DNA of 48,832 nucleotides. Origin: a virus. Where the stretch lies: positions 1 through 48,832 of the IMG/VR virus record IMGVR_UViG_3300018424_000034; one strand, 5' to 3'. Under the pieces are notes generated by a model that had not been told where the DNA came from, did no database searches, and saw only the letters and a program-made list of their open reading frames with translations. Both the position numbers and the translations under genes were made by a program. Positions 9,925 through 31,451 of this stretch are shown piece after piece. Positions within the stretch are counted from its first letter, which is position 1. Each line of letters starts with the position of its first letter.

Positions 9925-10767
9925 ATGTCATCAGGTGGTGGTGGAGGCGGATCAGCTCCCGCAGTACAAACACAAATAGTTAGAGAAGCACCAGGTATTG
10001 AAGAACGTAAACTAGGCTTGATGGATATTGGTCTTACTTTAGGTCAGCAACCTGTTAACATACCTCAAGTTCAGGTAGCAGGGCCAACGGGCCTTGAACA
10101 AGCTGCTTTTCAACAAGCAGGAACTACAGGGGTAGGTGCAGCAACACAACAGGCTGGAATTACTGCTTTACAACAAGCTGCAGGTGCACCAAACATTTCA
10201 CAATTTTTCAATCCATATCAAAACTATGTATTAGATGAAATTAATAGACAAGCTGCTCAAGGGATGACTAGAACACAAGGACAAGCCGTACAAGCGGGTG
10301 CTTTTGGTGGTGGAAGAGAAGGTGTTCAGTTAGCAGAACAAGAAAGAGCTAGACTAGGTTTAATTGGTCAAGCACAAGCTTCAGGATTCCAAACAGCATT
10401 AGGTGCTGCTCAACAACAGCAACAAGCTCAACTACAAGCTGGTCAAGCTTTAGGTGCTGCGGGTCAATCTCAACAAGCTATGCAACAAGCTGATATTCAA
10501 AGTCAGTTAATGGCAGGTGGAGCACAAAGACAGTTACAGCAACAACAATTAGATGCGGCTAGAGCTACTGAATTACAAAGAGCTTATGAACCTTTCCAAA
10601 GAGCTGAGTTTATTAAAAACATATACGCAGCGGGCCCTACTTCACAGTCGGGTATTACTGCAGCTACAACACCAACAGTAAACCCATTAGCTCAAACAGT
10701 AGGAACAGGTATTGCTGCTTATCAAGCGTATGCAGCATCACAACCTAAAACAATAGTTCAAAGTTAG
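9925..10767 (+). CDS. Gln/Ala-rich virion protein (ejection-type)
   Basis: A 280-residue protein starting 'MSSGGGGGGSAP' with a very Gln- and Ala-rich middle (about residues 60-215, 'AAQQQQQAQLQAGQALGAAGQSQQ'-like), predicted long helices and no membrane segment. A small conserved-looking block is 'FFNPYQNYVLDEINRQ'. Such proteins between gp13-like and very long internal proteins are typical of podovirus DNA-ejection apparatus, which is the inference here. No named family recognised. Confidence 0.6.
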   Translation: MSSGGGGGGSAPAVQTQIVREAPGIEERKLGLMDIGLTLGQQPVNIPQVQVAGPTGLEQAAFQQAGTTGVGAATQQAGITALQQAAGAPNISQFFNPYQNYVLDEINRQAAQGMTRTQGQAVQAGAFGGGREGVQLAEQERARLGLIGQAQASGFQTALGAAQQQQQAQLQAGQALGAAGQSQQAMQQADIQSQLMAGGAQRQLQQQQLDAARATELQRAYEPFQRAEFIKNIYAAGPTSQSGITAATTPTVNPLAQTVGTGIAAYQAYAASQPKTIVQS

Positions 10768-19721: not shown

Positions 19722-20525
19722 ATGATTGAAAAATCAAATGCGATCGCTAAGAAAAAAGAAACACCATTGTCTATGGATGTTTCATCACTAGAAAATCTAG
19801 CAGGTATGGGTACAGAAAATGTAGGGCAAAGAGATTTGCAACTTCCATTTTTAAAAATCCTATCTCAACTATCACCGCAAGTAACACAAGGTGATTCTAA
19901 ATTCATAGCAGAAGCTAGACCTGGTATGATATACAACTCAGTATCCGATCAATGTTTTGATGGACAACAAGGTATAAGAGTAATTCCTTGTTTCTATAAA
20001 CTTGAATACTTAGAGTGGAAAGACAGAGGTCAAGAGGGAAGTGGTGCACCCGTAAATATTTACGATGCAACTTTTGACATTGCTGGTAAAACAACTAGAG
20101 GGCCAGATAGAAAAGATAGATTAGCTAACGGTAATTATATCGAAGAGACGGCTTCTCACTATGTGTTGTTAGTTGATGAGAATGATCAACCAACTGAAAC
20201 AGCTTTGATTACAATGAAAGCTACACAGAGAAAGAAGTCTAGAAAATGGAACTCTATGATCATGACTCAAAGAGTAAAAGGTAAGAATGGTTTCTTTCAA
20301 CCACCTTCATTTGCTCAAATCTATAAACTTAGAACTATTTTAGAAAAAAATAGTTTAGGTTCATGGTACGGTTGGGACATTGATTATGATAAGAATGTAT
20401 CAAATCAAACTCTACTTACTGCAGCACAAGACTTCTATAACACTTGTAAACAAGGTGAAGTTAATGTGAAGCATGGGGAAGAGGAAGCTCCAAAAGAAAT
20501 AGCATCTGAGACTACTCCATACTAA
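19722..20525 (+). CDS. Putative SSB-like replication protein (267 aa)
   Basis: A 267-residue protein with a good ribosome site. N-terminal 'QRDLQLPFLKILSQLSPQV', a beta-rich centre ('GIRVIPCFYKLEYLEW', 'YVLLVDENDQPTETALITMKATQRKKSRKWNSMI'), and an acidic tail (GEEEAPKEIASE). A basic/aromatic beta core with an acidic tail is the usual plan of phage ssDNA-binding proteins, and the gene directly precedes the primase. This is inference from composition and context; I recall the 'LPFLKILQ.LSP' start from many marine phage genomes without a proven function. Confidence 0.5.
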   Translation: MIEKSNAIAKKKETPLSMDVSSLENLAGMGTENVGQRDLQLPFLKILSQLSPQVTQGDSKFIAEARPGMIYNSVSDQCFDGQQGIRVIPCFYKLEYLEWKDRGQEGSGAPVNIYDATFDIAGKTTRGPDRKDRLANGNYIEETASHYVLLVDENDQPTETALITMKATQRKKSRKWNSMIMTQRVKGKNGFFQPPSFAQIYKLRTILEKNSLGSWYGWDIDYDKNVSNQTLLTAAQDFYNTCKQGEVNVKHGEEEAPKEIASETTPY

Positions 20526-20527
20526 AT

Positions 20528-22189
20528 ATGGATCTAAGTAGATTTTCAGAACTATTCGATGGATCTAAAAAACGTTATGGTACCTTCAAGCCTTCGGGCT
20601 TGAAGCGTGCCGACGGCAAAGTCGAAGGCAGATACGATTGGGAATCATTCCCTGCAAATGGGGATGAATCTAAGATGTGGTCAGACCACGTAAACGGAAT
20701 TCAATCAATTGGTATTGTACCAATTAGAGAAGATAGCACCGTTAGTTTTGGTGTTATTGATGTAGATCAAATTAAATCAGAAGAGGAAGCTAACGAAGTA
20801 CTAGATAAAATGAGAGGTTGGAACCTCCCATTAGTACCGTTTAGATCGAAATCGGGAGGCGTACACGCGTATTTATTCATAGATGGCTCTGCACCTGCCA
20901 AAGAAATAAAAAGAAGGCTTACTGCGTTATCTTTAAAACTTGGAAGACCTAAAAATACAATAGATATATTTCCAGTACAAACTAAACTTAACTCAGATGG
21001 TACAGGTAATCAGATTAATACACCTTATTTTAATCACAAGGACGAAGAAACAAAACGTTGGGCCATACGAAATTACAATATAAAAGATTTAATACCTTTA
21101 GAAGAATTTCTAAAGATGAAGATTACTAGAGTTACATTAAAAGAATTAGAATCAATTGGTATCAAAAAAGTTTCTGACTATCCACCATGTATGGATTATT
21201 ATTTTGAAAACAAAGTTCATGAAGGTGAAAGAGATAAAGCTCTTTTACAGTTTGGATGTGTTGCTAGAAAAATGCACGGTAATGATGAGGACAAGATTAG
21301 AGAAGAGATGGATAACTTTGTAACTAAGTTCTTTGCTTCTGAAGAAGGATTTGACAAAAACCAATTTGCTAAAAAAGTATCTCAGGTTATGAAAACAAGA
21401 GATGAAGCAGATAGAAAAGATGAGAATGATATTTACTACGTAAGAAATAACTGTAGACAAATAGCTGACTTAGGTCGATGTGATAAGGTTGCGTGTAGAA
21501 CTCGTAAGTTTGGTTTAGTAGAAAAATCTGTAATGGTTACAGACTATAGAATGATTATGACTAATCCTAGAAGACATTTACTTACAATGGTAAACGAACA
21601 AGGTGATGAAGTAATTATATCAATGACTACAGATCAACTTTGGACACAAAATCAAATAGCAAAAAGATGTTGGGAAGAACAAATTAAATGGACGTGGATT
21701 GAACCCGATGAGTTTCAAGACATGAAAGACAATTGGTTTAAGGATATGAAAGTTATTGATTCTTACAATGAAGGTGAAGAGAGATTATCTGAATTTAGTA
21801 CAATCCTACATTCTTTTATTGATGAGAAAAAAGGTGCAAACGATATTACTCAAATAGATTATGGTTACGTTTATAGATGTGACAAGCTGAAAAGATATTT
21901 TTGGAATGCTACTTCATTTAAACATTATGCAAAAAGTAAATACAATAAATCTTATGAAGTAACTTTAGGTGAGATGTTAGCTAGAATGTGTGAAGAAGAA
22001 AAAGCTAAACATCCAGATAAAAAAGATACAAGTAAAAGAATTATACAATTACATAAGGGTTACCAAGGTTATACAAAAAGATGTTACTCATCTGTAATAC
22101 TGTCTGAAATAGAAAAAAGAGATAACGGACAAAAGATAAATAACTTTAAACAACAGATGGGAGATAATGAGTTTAGTACAAACGAATAA
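20528..22189 (+). CDS. Archaeo-eukaryotic-type primase (AEP, TOTE-like)
   Basis: A 553-residue protein. The AEP catalytic elements are visible: 'SFGVIDVD' with the metal-binding D78-x-D80, 'SKSGGVHAYLFI' (SGG-x-H at 109-113) and 'IDIFPVQ' (third Asp at 146), followed by 'GTGNQINTPYF'. That series matches AEP domains of the TOTE type. A helical domain with 'ALLQFGCVARKMHG' follows (PriCT-like position), then a Cys cluster near residues 310-330 ('NNCRQIADLGRCDKVACRTRKFG') that may bind zinc, and a C-terminal region of unknown fold. It overlaps the UvrD-like helicase gene by 23 bases, so primase and helicase are co-translated. It would prime phage DNA replication. Confidence 0.8.
   Translation: MDLSRFSELFDGSKKRYGTFKPSGLKRADGKVEGRYDWESFPANGDESKMWSDHVNGIQSIGIVPIREDSTVSFGVIDVDQIKSEEEANEVLDKMRGWNLPLVPFRSKSGGVHAYLFIDGSAPAKEIKRRLTALSLKLGRPKNTIDIFPVQTKLNSDGTGNQINTPYFNHKDEETKRWAIRNYNIKDLIPLEEFLKMKITRVTLKELESIGIKKVSDYPPCMDYYFENKVHEGERDKALLQFGCVARKMHGNDEDKIREEMDNFVTKFFASEEGFDKNQFAKKVSQVMKTRDEADRKDENDIYYVRNNCRQIADLGRCDKVACRTRKFGLVEKSVMVTDYRMIMTNPRRHLLTMVNEQGDEVIISMTTDQLWTQNQIAKRCWEEQIKWTWIEPDEFQDMKDNWFKDMKVIDSYNEGEERLSEFSTILHSFIDEKKGANDITQIDYGYVYRCDKLKRYFWNATSFKHYAKSKYNKSYEVTLGEMLARMCEEEKAKHPDKKDTSKRIIQLHKGYQGYTKRCYSSVILSEIEKRDNGQKINNFKQQMGDNEFSTNE
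20584..20605 (+). repeat. 9-bp hairpin with UUCG tetraloop inside the primase gene
   Basis: CTTCAAGCC, TTCG, GGCTTGAAG: a perfect 9-bp inverted repeat closed by the extra-stable UUCG loop, 57 bases after the primase ATG and in frame (FKPSGLKR). It sits in a short GC-rich patch unlike the surrounding AT-rich code. No T-tract, so it is not a standard terminator; it may modulate translation or RNA stability. Confidence 0.7.
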
Positions 22190-23819
22190 ACCGAATGCAG
22201 CTGATGCAATTAGAAATGATTTTGATGCGGTACAAAAGATAAAAAATAAAACATGGAAGATCTATGGTCCTCCAGGTACAGGTAAAACGCACACTTTATT
22301 AAACATAATCAAATACGGTATTGGTAAATTACATAAGGTACCAGAATATATTGCATACTGTTCTTTTACTAGAGCTGCAGCTAAGGAAGGTATGGATAGA
22401 ATATTAAAAGCTTTTCCAAATAAATACAAAGAAGATTCATTTGAGTTATTTAAAACAATTCATGCAATGTGTTTGTCCAGGACAAGAGATTCTTCATTAG
22501 AAATTATAGATGAGAATAAACATTTACCTGCATTTAGTTATTTAGAAAGAGGAGAAGAAGTTCAATTAAAAGTAGGTAAGGATGAAGATGGTAAGGTTGC
22601 TATTAAAAATTACCCTATTGAGATATACGAGAGAGCTAGAAATTGCAAATTAACTTTGAAAGAAGCTTACGATGCTGATAATTCTATGAATAAAACACCT
22701 CACTGGGGAGATTTAGTAGACATAGTGGACAACTGGGTTAAGTTTAAAGAAGGTTTCTTTATGGACTTTACAGACATGATTGAAGACTTTTTAATTAAAG
22801 ATTATTCATTCAAGGTAGATTATTTTATAGTAGATGAAGCACAAGATTTAACACCCTTACAGTGGGATTTTGTATATTTAATGGCTAGTAAAGCAGACAC
22901 AGTTATTATTGCAGGTGATGATGATCAAGCTATTCATGAATGGAACGGTGCAAGTGTTGAGGAGTTTTTAAACTTTCCAGGAAGAACTAAAGTATTACAT
23001 AAATCTAGAAGACTACCATCAAAAATTTTAGAGTTTTCTAAAAACATAACTGACCAGATACAACTAAGACAACCAAAAAATTATATTGCTACAGGTTCTA
23101 AAGGTTACATACAAACAAACAACTTTACTTTAAAACATATAAACTTTAATGAGCATATAGATGATACCTGGATGGTATTAGCTAGGACCTTAACAGAACT
23201 AAAAGAGTTAAGAGCTTATGCTAAAGATATGGGACTATTCTTTAAGACATCATCTGGTTATCCATCTGTAAATGCTACCCATTGGAAAGCTATTGAGATA
23301 TGGGATAAGTTAATGAAAGATGAAGAGATTGGTATTCAGGAAGTTGGATTGGTTTATTCTTATATTAGAAACATACAACATGGTTGGAGAAAAACAGATA
23401 ACAAGAGATGGTCAAAGATAACTAAAGATAAGTTTAACTATCGATATTTACATCTTAACTGTGGACTACAAGAGGAACAGGGATCATGGACAACGGCATT
23501 AGATATAGACATTCACAATAAAAATTATATAAATAAATTACTTGAAAGAGGAGTTAAGTCCGATAGTGTACCTAAAATTACTATTGATAAGATTCATCAA
23601 GTGAAGGGAAAAGAGGCGGATCACGTAGTTATTTGGGAACAATGTCCTAAAATATGTACTTTACAAGATAAAAATAGTAGAGAAAGAGACGCCGAATTAA
23701 GAGTTTGGTATGTAGCTGTAACAAGAGCTAAAAAAGGTGTGCATATAATTCAACCAAATAAACCATATGGACATCACATGCCATTAACAGCAATAGGAAA
23801 CGGGAGATATAGAATATGA
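22167..23819 (+). CDS. UvrD/Rep-like SF1 helicase
   Basis: A 550-residue protein. Walker A 'GPPGTGKT' is at 34-41, motif Ia 'YCSFTRAAAKEGMDRI' near 64-80, and motif II 'VDEAQDLTPLQW' (DEAQD 223-227). Motif III is 'IIAGDDDQAIHEWNGA', motif V 'IDKIHQVKGKEADHVVI', and motif VI 'WYVAVTRAKKGVHI' near 514-527. All SF1A motifs are present. It follows the primase in an overlapping frame and probably unwinds the template for it. No DnaB-type helicase is visible, so this or the SNF2 enzyme may be the fork helicase. Confidence 0.9.
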   Translation: MSLVQTNKPNAADAIRNDFDAVQKIKNKTWKIYGPPGTGKTHTLLNIIKYGIGKLHKVPEYIAYCSFTRAAAKEGMDRILKAFPNKYKEDSFELFKTIHAMCLSRTRDSSLEIIDENKHLPAFSYLERGEEVQLKVGKDEDGKVAIKNYPIEIYERARNCKLTLKEAYDADNSMNKTPHWGDLVDIVDNWVKFKEGFFMDFTDMIEDFLIKDYSFKVDYFIVDEAQDLTPLQWDFVYLMASKADTVIIAGDDDQAIHEWNGASVEEFLNFPGRTKVLHKSRRLPSKILEFSKNITDQIQLRQPKNYIATGSKGYIQTNNFTLKHINFNEHIDDTWMVLARTLTELKELRAYAKDMGLFFKTSSGYPSVNATHWKAIEIWDKLMKDEEIGIQEVGLVYSYIRNIQHGWRKTDNKRWSKITKDKFNYRYLHLNCGLQEEQGSWTTALDIDIHNKNYINKLLERGVKSDSVPKITIDKIHQVKGKEADHVVIWEQCPKICTLQDKNSRERDAELRVWYVAVTRAKKGVHIIQPNKPYGHHMPLTAIGNGRYRI

Positions 23820-24070: not shown

Positions 24071-25954
24071 ATGTCGTATCAAATTAGTGTAATCATGAAA
24101 AATACTGAATGGGTAACACCAAGTGAGTTTCCAGATTTATCTGAAGAATCTGAAATAGCCATCGACTTAGAGACTAGAGACGAAAACATGAAAAAACTTG
24201 GCACAGGCTGGGCTAGACATGATGGAGAAATTGTAGGAATTGCAGTGGCTGCAGGTTCATTTAAAGGATACTATCCTATTAATCATCAAGGTGGTGGTAA
24301 TTTACCTAGAGGTAAAGTTATTGCATGGTTTCAATCAGTTTTAAAAACAAATGCAGATAAAATATTTCACAATGCACAATACGATTTAGGTTGGATTAGA
24401 GCACAGGGTTGGGAAGTTAAAGGTAGGATTATTGATACCATGATTGCTGCAGCATTGATTGATGAAAATAGATTTAGTTATTCATTGAATGCATTAGGTT
24501 TTGATTACCTTGGAGAAATTAAAGCAGAGGACGAGTTAAAAGAAGCTGCGGCTCAAAGAGGTTTAGATGCTAAAGCTGAATTATGGAAATTACCCGCTAT
24601 GGACGTGGGTTTTTACGCAGAACAAGATGCTGCACTTACTCTAAAATTATGGAATTACTTCAAGCCTACATTAGTAAAAGAAAATTTATTAAATGTTTGG
24701 CAACTAGAAATGGAGCTATTGCCTATACTTATAGGTATGAGAGAGACAGGTATAAGAGTAGATATAGATAAAGCGGAGACTTTGAAGAAGACTTTATTAG
24801 CTAAAGAATTAGAATTAATGAAGAAGATCAAAGGTTTAACAGGCCAAGATGTCGAGATATGGGCAGCACGATCAGTGGCTAAAGCTTTTGACCAACAAAA
24901 AATTAAGTATGATGTTACTGAAAAATCTAAGGCACCTTCTTTTACAACTAATTGGTTGGAGAATTGCAATCACCCCCTTGCAAGGTATATAAAGGACGCC
25001 AGAGAAATAAATAAATTACATTCAACGTTTATTGACTCCATATTAAAATACGAACACAAAGGTAGAATACATGCAGAAATTAATCAACTTCGCTCTGACA
25101 TGGGTGGGACTGTCTCTGGCCGTCTCTCTATGGCTAATCCTAATCTTCAACAAGTACCTGCCAGGAGCAAGGAGTATGGCAGACTTATTAGAGGCCTCTT
25201 CTTACCAGAAAAAGGATGCAAGTGGGGAAGTTTTGACTATTCACAGCAAGAACCAAGACTTGTTGTACATTACGCAGCCACAACAGATAAAGCACTAGGT
25301 GGTTTACAAGGATCACAACAACTTATAGATGCCTATCAAAATGATGACGCGGACTTTCATCAGACCGTAGCATCAATGGCTGGAATACCAAGATCACAGG
25401 CTAAAACTATTAACTTAGGAATATTTTATGGTATGGGTTCTGGAAAATTATCTAAACAATTAGGTATATCATTCGAAGAAGCTAAAGCATTGTTAAAAGA
25501 ATATGATGCCAAGGTACCTTTTGTTAAACAATTAGCAAACAGAGTAATGCAGCAAGCAGAGAAGTCTGGATCAATTAAAACTTTATTAGGTCGTAAGTGT
25601 AGATTTGATAAATGGGAACCAAAGTCTTTTGGTTTACATAAAGCTATGACTGAAAAAGAATATATTGCAGAGTATGGTAGTTTAAATTCTGCTAAGAGAG
25701 CTTTTACATACAAAGCATTAAACAGATTAATACAAGGTAGTGCAGCTGACCAGGTTAAAGCAGCGATGATTAATTGTGATAAGCACGGTCACGTACCTAT
25801 GCTACAGATTCACGATGAGTTATGTTTTAGTGTAGAAACAGAAGAAGATGAAGCAGGTATAGAAAAGGCCATGGTTAATAATCCTGCAGTAGATCTAGTG
25901 GTACCATCCAAAGTAGACAAAGCTTTAGGTGATGATTGGGGAGAAGCTACATAA
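24071..25954 (+). CDS. Family A DNA polymerase with 3'-5' exonuclease (Leu762 type)
   Basis: A 627-residue protein. Exonuclease: 'IDLET' (D32, E34), 'FHNAQYDLGW' (D105) and 'FYAEQD' (D186), so proofreading should be active. There is no 5'-3' nuclease domain. Polymerase: motif A 'SFDYSQQEPR' (D389), motif B 'PRSQAKTINLGIFYG' (R441, K445, Y453) and motif C 'IHDE' (581-583). The residue equivalent to E. coli Pol I Phe762 is Leu449 (codon TTA, 25415-25417). From published work on marine phages, Leu762 is linked to slower, possibly more accurate synthesis. Start: the ATG abuts the DUF3310 stop; an in-frame ATG at 24095 is possible. Confidence 0.95.
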   Translation: MSYQISVIMKNTEWVTPSEFPDLSEESEIAIDLETRDENMKKLGTGWARHDGEIVGIAVAAGSFKGYYPINHQGGGNLPRGKVIAWFQSVLKTNADKIFHNAQYDLGWIRAQGWEVKGRIIDTMIAAALIDENRFSYSLNALGFDYLGEIKAEDELKEAAAQRGLDAKAELWKLPAMDVGFYAEQDAALTLKLWNYFKPTLVKENLLNVWQLEMELLPILIGMRETGIRVDIDKAETLKKTLLAKELELMKKIKGLTGQDVEIWAARSVAKAFDQQKIKYDVTEKSKAPSFTTNWLENCNHPLARYIKDAREINKLHSTFIDSILKYEHKGRIHAEINQLRSDMGGTVSGRLSMANPNLQQVPARSKEYGRLIRGLFLPEKGCKWGSFDYSQQEPRLVVHYAATTDKALGGLQGSQQLIDAYQNDDADFHQTVASMAGIPRSQAKTINLGIFYGMGSGKLSKQLGISFEEAKALLKEYDAKVPFVKQLANRVMQQAEKSGSIKTLLGRKCRFDKWEPKSFGLHKAMTEKEYIAEYGSLNSAKRAFTYKALNRLIQGSAADQVKAAMINCDKHGHVPMLQIHDELCFSVETEEDEAGIEKAMVNNPAVDLVVPSKVDKALGDDWGEAT

Positions 25955-30216: not shown

Positions 30217-30263
30217 TCTTTTTTATATTTTTTTGTGGGCTACCCCCTTTCTTTTGTTTAGTT

Positions 30264-30295
30264 AGTCCCCTGACGTATCATATGATCAGGGGACT
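30264..30295 (+). repeat. 10-bp inverted repeat AGTCCCCTGA/TCAGGGGACT
   Basis: Perfect 10-bp arms (30264-30273 and 30286-30295). The 12-base loop, together with bases of the arms, contains the short palindrome ATCATATGAT. Only TTT follows, so it is a weak terminator at best; the inner symmetry makes a protein-binding site equally possible. It lies just before TTGACA at 30302. Confidence 0.6.
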
Positions 30296-30301
30296 TTAAA
30301 C

Positions 30302-30330
30302 TTGACACTAATTTTAAAATCAAATAATTT
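30302..30330 (+). promoter_or_regulatory. TTGACA promoter candidate
   Basis: Perfect TTGACA (30302-30307), 17 bases, then TAATTT (30325-30330), a weak -10. A transcript from here would meet a terminator within about 60 bases, so either it makes a very short RNA or the -35 is part of another control site. Confidence 0.35.
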
Positions 30331-30349
30331 GTAAATCTTTTATAAACAT

Positions 30350-30396
30350 ATACCCTCAAGGTTTTTAACTGGTTTAAGCTTTGGGGGTATTTTTTT
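30350..30396 (+). terminator. Rho-independent terminator
   Basis: ATACCCTCAAG (30350-30360) pairs with CTTTGGGGGTAT (30379-30390) with one wobble and a small slip, followed directly by a run of Ts (30390-30396). The long loop can fold further. It separates the accessory operon and the short upstream promoter from the repeat region. Confidence 0.65.
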
Positions 30397-30397
30397 C

Positions 30398-30426
30398 TTG
30401 ACACATTGTGATATTATCTGTATTGG
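30398..30426 (+). promoter_or_regulatory. Extended -10 promoter TGATATTAT plus a TTGACA box
   Basis: TGATATTAT at 30409-30417 is an extended -10 like those at 1548 (TGATATAAT) and 35574 (TGATATATT), predicting a start near 30424. A TTGACA at 30398-30403 pairs only with a poor -10 (TATTGG, 30421-30426) at 17 bases. Either would transcribe the structured segment that follows. Confidence 0.5.
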
Positions 30427-30535
30427 GTACTACAGCTTTTTTGTTAAAGCTCCCTTATGGGTTAAGTTAGTAGTCCTGGGACAGCGAGAGGTGTCCTGGG
30501 ACGGAGCTGGGACAGCCCCTCTGTCCCAGCTTTTT
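30424..30535 (+). ncRNA. Candidate structured noncoding RNA ending at an intrinsic terminator
   Basis: From the predicted start the RNA can form a three-way junction. The outer stem is ACTAC/GTAGT (30429-30433 with 30470-30474), the inner stem AGCTTT/AAAGCT (30434-30439 with 30446-30451), and a small CCC-TTAT-GGG hairpin sits at 30452-30461. Two CCTGGGAC boxes follow, then the terminator hairpin. The boxes can also pair with the terminator's CTGTCCCAG arm, giving an alternative fold. No open frame of note. Not a tRNA or a class I can name. The fold is by hand only. Confidence 0.4.
30505..30535 (+). terminator. Strong rho-independent terminator
   Basis: AGCTGGGACAG (30505-30515), loop CCCCT, CTGTCCCAGCT (30521-30531): 11 perfect base pairs followed by TTTTT (30531-30535). 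It is built from two of the TGGGAC boxes. Confidence 0.8.
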
Positions 30536-30696
30536 AAGTAAAAAGATACAATTACCAACACTTTTAAGTCAAAAATAATTCCTGGGACGCTAGGACATAT
30601 AAAATACCCTTTTTTAAAGACGCAAAAAAAATTTTGGGCTGTCTTTGTGTCCCAGAGGCCAAAATCGAGCTAAAACCGTTGGTATCATTGAATAAT

Positions 30697-30720
30697 CCTG
30701 GGACAAAATCTTGTCCCAGG
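30697..30720. repeat. Perfect 10-bp inverted repeat without T-tract
   Basis: CCTGGGACAA, AATC, TTGTCCCAGG. A perfect hairpin of two boxes, but followed by GCTGTCCCAG rather than Ts, so a protein-binding site is more likely than a terminator. Confidence 0.7.
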
Positions 30721-30914
30721 GCTGTCCCAGCGTGTCCCAGAGCTGTCCTAGGAGATATTTATTAAGGTTTAATAATGGTAAGTGCCTAGGGGCTAATTAA
30801 TATATAATAATAATAATTCTCAATTTATATCTACAAAAGGGAAAATAATAACGGACAACGGTACAGGGCCAACGGAACACGTCCACGAGTGTTTATTTAG
30901 GCAAGGAAATAGGT

Positions 30915-30926: not shown

Positions 30927-31451
30927 ATGGGAAAACTACCAAATACACTTAAAGCAACTTCACAACTAACTCCAAAACAGAGAACGTTTGTAGATAAATA
31001 CGTTGAGAACTATGCAAAGCCTGGTTATAGTAAAGCTCAGGCAGTTAGAGATGCGGGTTATAATCCTAAAAGAGATAATGGTGCAGCTGAGATAGGTAGT
31101 AGATTACTTAATCCGAATTTAAATCCACATGTGGTACGTTATTTTGAAAAACGTCTAAACGCCGAACTAGCTATTTATGAAAAAGACAAGCTACGATCCT
31201 ACAAACAATATGAACGTATGAGAGAAGGTGCTATTGATAAGTCACAATACAATGCAGCTATCAATGCTGAAAAAAGTATAGGACAGATGGCAGGATTTTT
31301 TGTAAATAGAACTGAAGTACAACACAGTAGTTTGGAGGGCATGTCGCGTGAGCAACTTGAAAAAAGGCTTAGCGAGCTTGAACGTAAACTCGGTGATCAC
31401 AAAGAAATCATTGACGTTACGCCAGAGAGCGTTGAAATTAGCGGAGACTGA
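30927..31451 (+). CDS. Terminase small subunit (Terminase_2-like)
   Basis: A 174-residue protein. 'LTPKQRTFVDKYVENYAKPGYSKAQAVRDAGYNPKRDNGAAEIGSRLLNP' (here given as one family signature) is the DNA-binding helix-turn-helix part of Terminase_2-type small subunits. Helices for ring assembly and a Glu/Lys coil ('SREQLEKRLSELERKLG') follow. It recognises the packaging site and recruits the large subunit. The large subunit gene is 4.1 kb downstream, an unusual separation. The upstream repeat cluster is its likely DNA target. Confidence 0.85.
   Translation: MGKLPNTLKATSQLTPKQRTFVDKYVENYAKPGYSKAQAVRDAGYNPKRDNGAAEIGSRLLNPNLNPHVVRYFEKRLNAELAIYEKDKLRSYKQYERMREGAIDKSQYNAAINAEKSIGQMAGFFVNRTEVQHSSLEGMSREQLEKRLSELERKLGDHKEIIDVTPESVEISGD

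Follow-up and report, generated by a model that had tools for sequence, protein, structure and literature searches.

Does a cluster of short repeated words directly before the gene for the small terminase subunit (terS) mark the site where DNA packaging begins, or the origin from which the genome is replicated? The original prediction for the locus described here proposed either. The window, i.e., the whole stretch of DNA analysed, is a 48,832-base IMG/VR fragment without end repeats. It is a fragment of an HTVC023P-type pelagiphage, a group of abundant marine phages, and among cultured relatives Pelagibacter phage HTVC023P has the TerS nearest to its own (56% amino-acid identity). Tail genes come first, followed by a minus-strand SNF2-type helicase gene, Pam3 gp33/gp34-like genes and the genes for an AEP primase, a UvrD-like helicase and a family A polymerase, and then by small genes, the box cluster, terS, terL and the portal gene (Table 1). 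The gene after the cluster had been correctly assigned as terS; Terminase_2, the Pfam family that it matches, we take to be the SPP1/SF6 G1P family. TerS is predicted to have an N-terminal helix-turn-helix followed by further helices, and its model gives weak matches only in the PDB, including the NV1 and PaP3 small terminases. The AEP domain of the primase model matches the folds of CAPP Prim-Pol and the RSF1010 RepB′ primase. Rows from named phage records were left out of two structure-model alignments. In the literature searched, no origin, pac site or box cluster was found described in this pelagiphage group.

Allowing at most one mismatch to CTGGGACA, the array comprises 12 boxes at 30476-30751, ten exact copies of CTGGGAC (five per strand) and two of CTAGGAC, with 175 bases between the end of the last box and the start of terS. 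CTAGGACA accounts for two of the 12, all eight exact copies of CTGGGACA in the window are confined to the cluster, and the boxes of the proximal block are spaced 14, 11, 10 and 11. The hexamer TGGGAC is not enriched genome-wide (16 observed against 10.8 expected), whereas 10 of its 16 copies, five per strand, fall within 30477-30739; the signal is thus clustering rather than overall frequency. CTGGGAC has ten copies within a 300-base span, whereas in 40 dinucleotide-preserving shuffles of the window the maximum for any 7-mer containing three or more G/C was 3 or 4, and the cluster is the top short-word cluster of the entire window. The dense, two-orientation array that had been predicted is therefore real, and both of its predicted perfect hairpins are present. 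An iteron-type origin would be expected to look like this, with a short word repeated several times within a compact stretch of non-coding DNA. A GC-skew switch at the cluster, originally proposed as a check for an origin, was not seen, which counts against that reading, although the skew test has little power because nearly all genes lie on one strand. Two terminator-like hairpins were seen by eye in the A+T-rich flank upstream of the boxes but were not reported by the pattern scan. A separate cluster of another word lies far from terS (Table 1).

Table 1. Features of the window and box or repeat regions in other contigs
Feature	Position	Strand	Remarks
Distal box block	30476..30529	both	CTGGGACA/G at 30476(+), 30496(+), 30507(+), 30522(-)
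Perfect hairpin, 11-bp arms	30505-30515/30521-30531		in distal block
Middle box pair	30582..30597	+	CTGGGACG and CTAGGACA, 8 bp apart
Lone box	30648..30655	-	CTGGGACA
Proximal box block	30698..30751	both	30698(+), 30712(-), 30723(-), 30733(-), 30744(-, CTAGGACA)
Perfect hairpin, 10-bp arms	30697-30706/30711-30720		in proximal block; read from sequence
A+T-rich flank, 77% A+T	30750..30849		between boxes and terS; candidate unwinding region
A+T-rich flank, 73-75% A+T	30250..30399		upstream of boxes
terS, small terminase	30927..31451	+	PHROG 51, E 1e-9; Pfam Terminase_2
Pam3 gp34-like replication-module gene	19722..20525	+	
AEP-type DNA primase	20528..22189	+	AEP-TOTE 1e-15; candidate box reader
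UvrD/PcrA/Rep-like helicase (SF1)	22167..23819	+	
Family A DNA polymerase	24071..25954	+	with 3′-5′ exonuclease domain
ACAAGC(T) cluster	10121-10320		ACAAGCT six times per 300 bases; inside or at end of an ORF
HTVC027P repeats	L004:16499-17746		GCTTG(A/T)GGCTTG-type, 7-base periodicity; partly in annotated small genes
CTGGGACA/TGTCCCAG box regions	L346:1194-1668, L338:2033-2374, L364:925-1349		beside VapE/D5-type primase-helicase genes
CTGGGACA/TGTCCCAG box regions	L345:3740-4049, L373:2511-2819		beside VapE/D5-type primase-helicase genes

Is the array conserved? TerS searches yielded about 100 distinct TerS sequences among relatives, and de novo word counts upstream of terS revealed clusters in most of them. 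The boxes expected at the same place in related contigs are thus found, but in differing words: CTGGGACA, CAAAGACA, TGTGACA, CAGGGACA and variants of YYRRGAAA. CTGGGAC is shared by the window and L005, CTGGGAC and CTAGGAC occur together in L007, CAAAGAC is used in L008-L010, and CTAGGAA is the word of most HTVC023P-like loci, with CTGGGAA, CCAGGAA, TTAGGAA, CTAAGAA and TTAAGAA as variants. A TGTGACA/CTGACA class comprises G017, L121, L424 and L432, a CAGGGACA class is represented by L484, and a CTCTTACA class by L433, in which three small genes separate the cluster from terS. Within one genome most copies share a single word or a near variant of it, so that words switch together over the sites, although some genomes mix closely similar variants. 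In the HTVC023P-like clade the layout hardly varies, with spacings of 8, about 43, 11, 9 and 12 and the orientation ++ ++-+. A layout that is kept while each genome holds to one word implies a co-evolving DNA-binding protein, and the concerted change suggests that this protein reads the sites. Additional elements accompany some clusters. Between inverted CTGGGAA boxes 430 bases upstream of terS, L096 and L124 carry a second word, TTGACAA/TTGTCAA; in L002, L054 and other HTVC023P-like loci an inverted GTTTGTAAGGAAG..GTAT-like element flanks the cluster on either side, pointing outward, and is possibly part of a promoter or of an origin.

The position of the cluster relative to terS also varies. 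The inverted terS of HTVC027P-type phages has its cluster, with words such as TGTTACA, TTGAGAC and TGAAGCA, beyond the 3′ end, beginning about 0.86 kb from the start of the gene. The placement in 023Pt_psg01, with seven copies of TGGCACA, is similar. As the cluster lies past the 3′ end of terS, a role in the terS leader is excluded in both. This bears on the idea that the inverted boxes form RNA hairpins controlling expression from the terS leader. The window strand folds far better than its shuffles (z -6.8), but inverted copies fold by construction, the boxes of relatives are oriented differently, in many cases largely as direct copies, and there was no Rfam match. With the cluster outside the terS leader in HTVC027P-type phages as well, such a role is very improbable, and it was rejected because box orientations are not conserved.

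Which protein, then, do the words follow? The obvious candidate is TerS itself, which would bind the boxes as a pac or cosB site and start packaging nearby. The cluster adjoins terS in most relatives, where such a site would be expected, and TerS belongs to Terminase_2 like the SPP1/SF6 small subunits, which have a boxed pac site (PMC4737164). A pac or cosB word would be expected to track the DNA-binding domain of TerS, but given the primase the correlation of box word with this domain is 0.000, and given any of the replication proteins it is 0.00-0.11 and not significant. Conversely, given the TerS DNA-binding domain, partial Spearman correlations with the box word are 0.389 for the primase (p 0.01), 0.357 for the helicase (p 0.024) and 0.407 for the polymerase (p 0.012). 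Counting as overlapping any between-class pair whose identity exceeds that of the most dissimilar within-class pair, 0 of 66 pairs overlap for primase, helicase and polymerase, as against 60 of 66 for the TerS domain; the three replication proteins thus divide along the same lines as the words. G017 shares 65-70% identity in the TerS domain with G015, G020, G009 and G007 and yet its box is wholly different, whereas the TerS domain of G009 is just 50% identical to that of HTVC023P and their boxes are one base apart. The primase tree unites the genomes with GAAA-type boxes in a single clade, whose branch is 2.56 changes per column long. The TerS tree, which had been expected to reject monophyly of the GAAA type, is unresolved and did not do so (p 0.60). 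The tree test alone is therefore not decisive, and the case against TerS rests on the degree of divergence and on few independent switches. Taken from these sequence comparisons, the box-reading protein is probably not TerS; as expected of an iteron-type origin, word specificity goes with the replication proteins that each genome encodes.

Two further leads did not hold. A code pairing TerS recognition-helix residue 57 (G/A) with box position 7 (C/A) looked promising but fails, because L106-type TerS has G with TTAAGAA and L134/G017-type TerS has A with CTGACA. Roseobacter phage CRP-901 was considered as a case in which replication genes had been exchanged in nature (PMC10149686), but blastp detected no relationship for its TerS, which makes the comparison uninformative; no cluster was found upstream of its terS.

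The ends of contigs provide another view of packaging. Among the IMG/VR relatives, 27 left ends fall in the first 800 bases upstream of terS and about 20 in the 2.1 kb beyond. This excess may reflect DNA ends, as packaging from the cluster would have it, or assembly breaks in variable repeats; the ends are scattered with no single point, and the circular assemblies G001 and G006, which have short end overlaps, break at unrelated places. A TerL kinship comparison did not settle the mode of packaging. With the words independent of the TerS domain and, in distant relatives, clusters upstream of primase genes far from terS, packaging initiation at the boxes is unlikely.

In six distant phages with a related primase (24-28% identity), boxes immediately precede the primase gene; in those with an annotated terS, some 20 kb lie between these boxes and terS. 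The words are GCAACCG in DMU1, TGGAACG in K21lambda1, PMBT28 and PSA28, and GGAACC in Kokobel2, all five found by the scan, and GGTAAC in JeffCo, seen by eye only and below the scan threshold. A further cluster, its word identical or almost so, is present in DMU1 (L401), K21lambda1 (L404) and Kokobel2 (L403); in DMU1 it adjoins terS. The clusters of these three phages adjoin a short hairpin such as TTGTCGCC/GGCGACAA. DMU1 and K21lambda1 also carry an adenylosuccinate synthetase gene, which suggests 2-aminoadenine genomes. A scan for CTGGGACA triples found 41 viral contigs, several with clusters beside VapE/D5-type or AAA_25 replication genes; as they were chosen by the word, they show style and not kinship. 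In viral contigs of higher G+C content, many CTGGGACA/TGTCCCAG boxes occur in both orientations, mostly 8-11 bp apart, and the five such regions listed in Table 1 are likely origins of other phages.

The same arrangement could also serve transcription if the boxes were sites of a phage activator or repressor for the operon that starts after the cluster. Clusters do occupy the larger intergenic regions where operons start, promoter-like sequences lie about 100 bp after them in the distant phages, two clusters precede two operons, and in HTVC023P a winged-helix-like gene, gp20, adjoins the cluster. However, gp20 was not detected in any of the other genomes examined, the clusters are not known to adjoin a conserved regulator gene, and in HTVC027P-type phages the cluster lies outside the terS promoter. 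An operator would also not usually consist of as many as 12 non-palindromic 8-bp sites in mixed orientation. Transcription control is thus rather unlikely.

The reading that we favor, and hold to be fairly probable, is that the cluster is an iteron-type origin of DNA replication. Of the two alternatives first proposed, origin has gained from the co-variation of the words with replication proteins and from the clusters upstream of distant primases; packaging has lost from the lack of co-variation with the TerS domain and from the position 3′ of the inverted HTVC027P-type terS. A possible mechanism is as follows: a protein encoded in the replication module of the phage itself, most plausibly the AEP primase or a co-encoded partner, would bind the 8-bp boxes, and the resulting complex would melt the A+T-rich DNA beside them and load the UvrD-like helicase and family A polymerase. 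What counts against an origin, besides the skew, is that the window cluster lies about 8 kb from the primase gene and in this family always stays near terS. Within the primase, a box-binding domain is a candidate only: from predicted secondary structure, the C-terminal segment at about 440-523 could be a winged helix, for which no backing match was found in the PDB, and no profile similarity between the primase and P4 alpha was detectable. More tentatively, we suggest that a protein of an AEP-primase module reads the iteron array without a P4-type D5 helicase, the 8-bp word having changed jointly over 6-12 sites. If so, matched pairs of protein and word would constitute a natural specificity code for origin recognition. 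With a candidate origin located, replication of these phages becomes testable, and matched sets of words and replication proteins permit direct tests of how origin recognition evolves. The case also cautions against taking every set of repeats beside terS for a packaging site.

How does the cluster compare with known systems? In lambda, cosB consists of repeated sites directly upstream of the small terminase gene; in the window phage group no fixed end is seen and word variation is independent of TerS. The SPP1/SF6 pac site, which has repeats at terS (PMC4737164), is similar in having direct-repeat boxes at a Terminase_2 small-subunit gene. Binding by the SF6 TerS domain is largely sequence-independent (PMC4737164), whereas the words of the window phage group change jointly and track replication genes. 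An AEP-type primase is common to the window phage, NrS-1 PrimPol, pRN1 and RSF1010. NrS-1 PrimPol recognizes an 8-nt motif, which may fix the start site (PMC8718748); the pRN1 origin has a stem-loop instead of iterons, and the RSF1010 iterons are read by RepC and not by the primase (PMC4234260). In satellite phage P4, the winged-helix domain of alpha binds the origin repeats (PMC4234260). P4 alpha is a primase-helicase with Toprim, D5_N and Pox_D5 domains, whereas the window phage has an AEP primase with a separate SF1 helicase, and a single cluster in the window; with no P4-family alpha primase-helicase, it does not belong to the P4-type systems and works like them at most. In the deposited P4 annotation, ori and crr are each a cluster of an 8-bp word that occurs on both strands, and they are the top matches of the same cluster scan. 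Their type 1 repeats, non-palindromic, 8 bp long, in both orientations, spaced 9-11 bp within a block and several per cluster, resemble the window boxes in size, mixed orientation and spacing (8-12 bp in the window).
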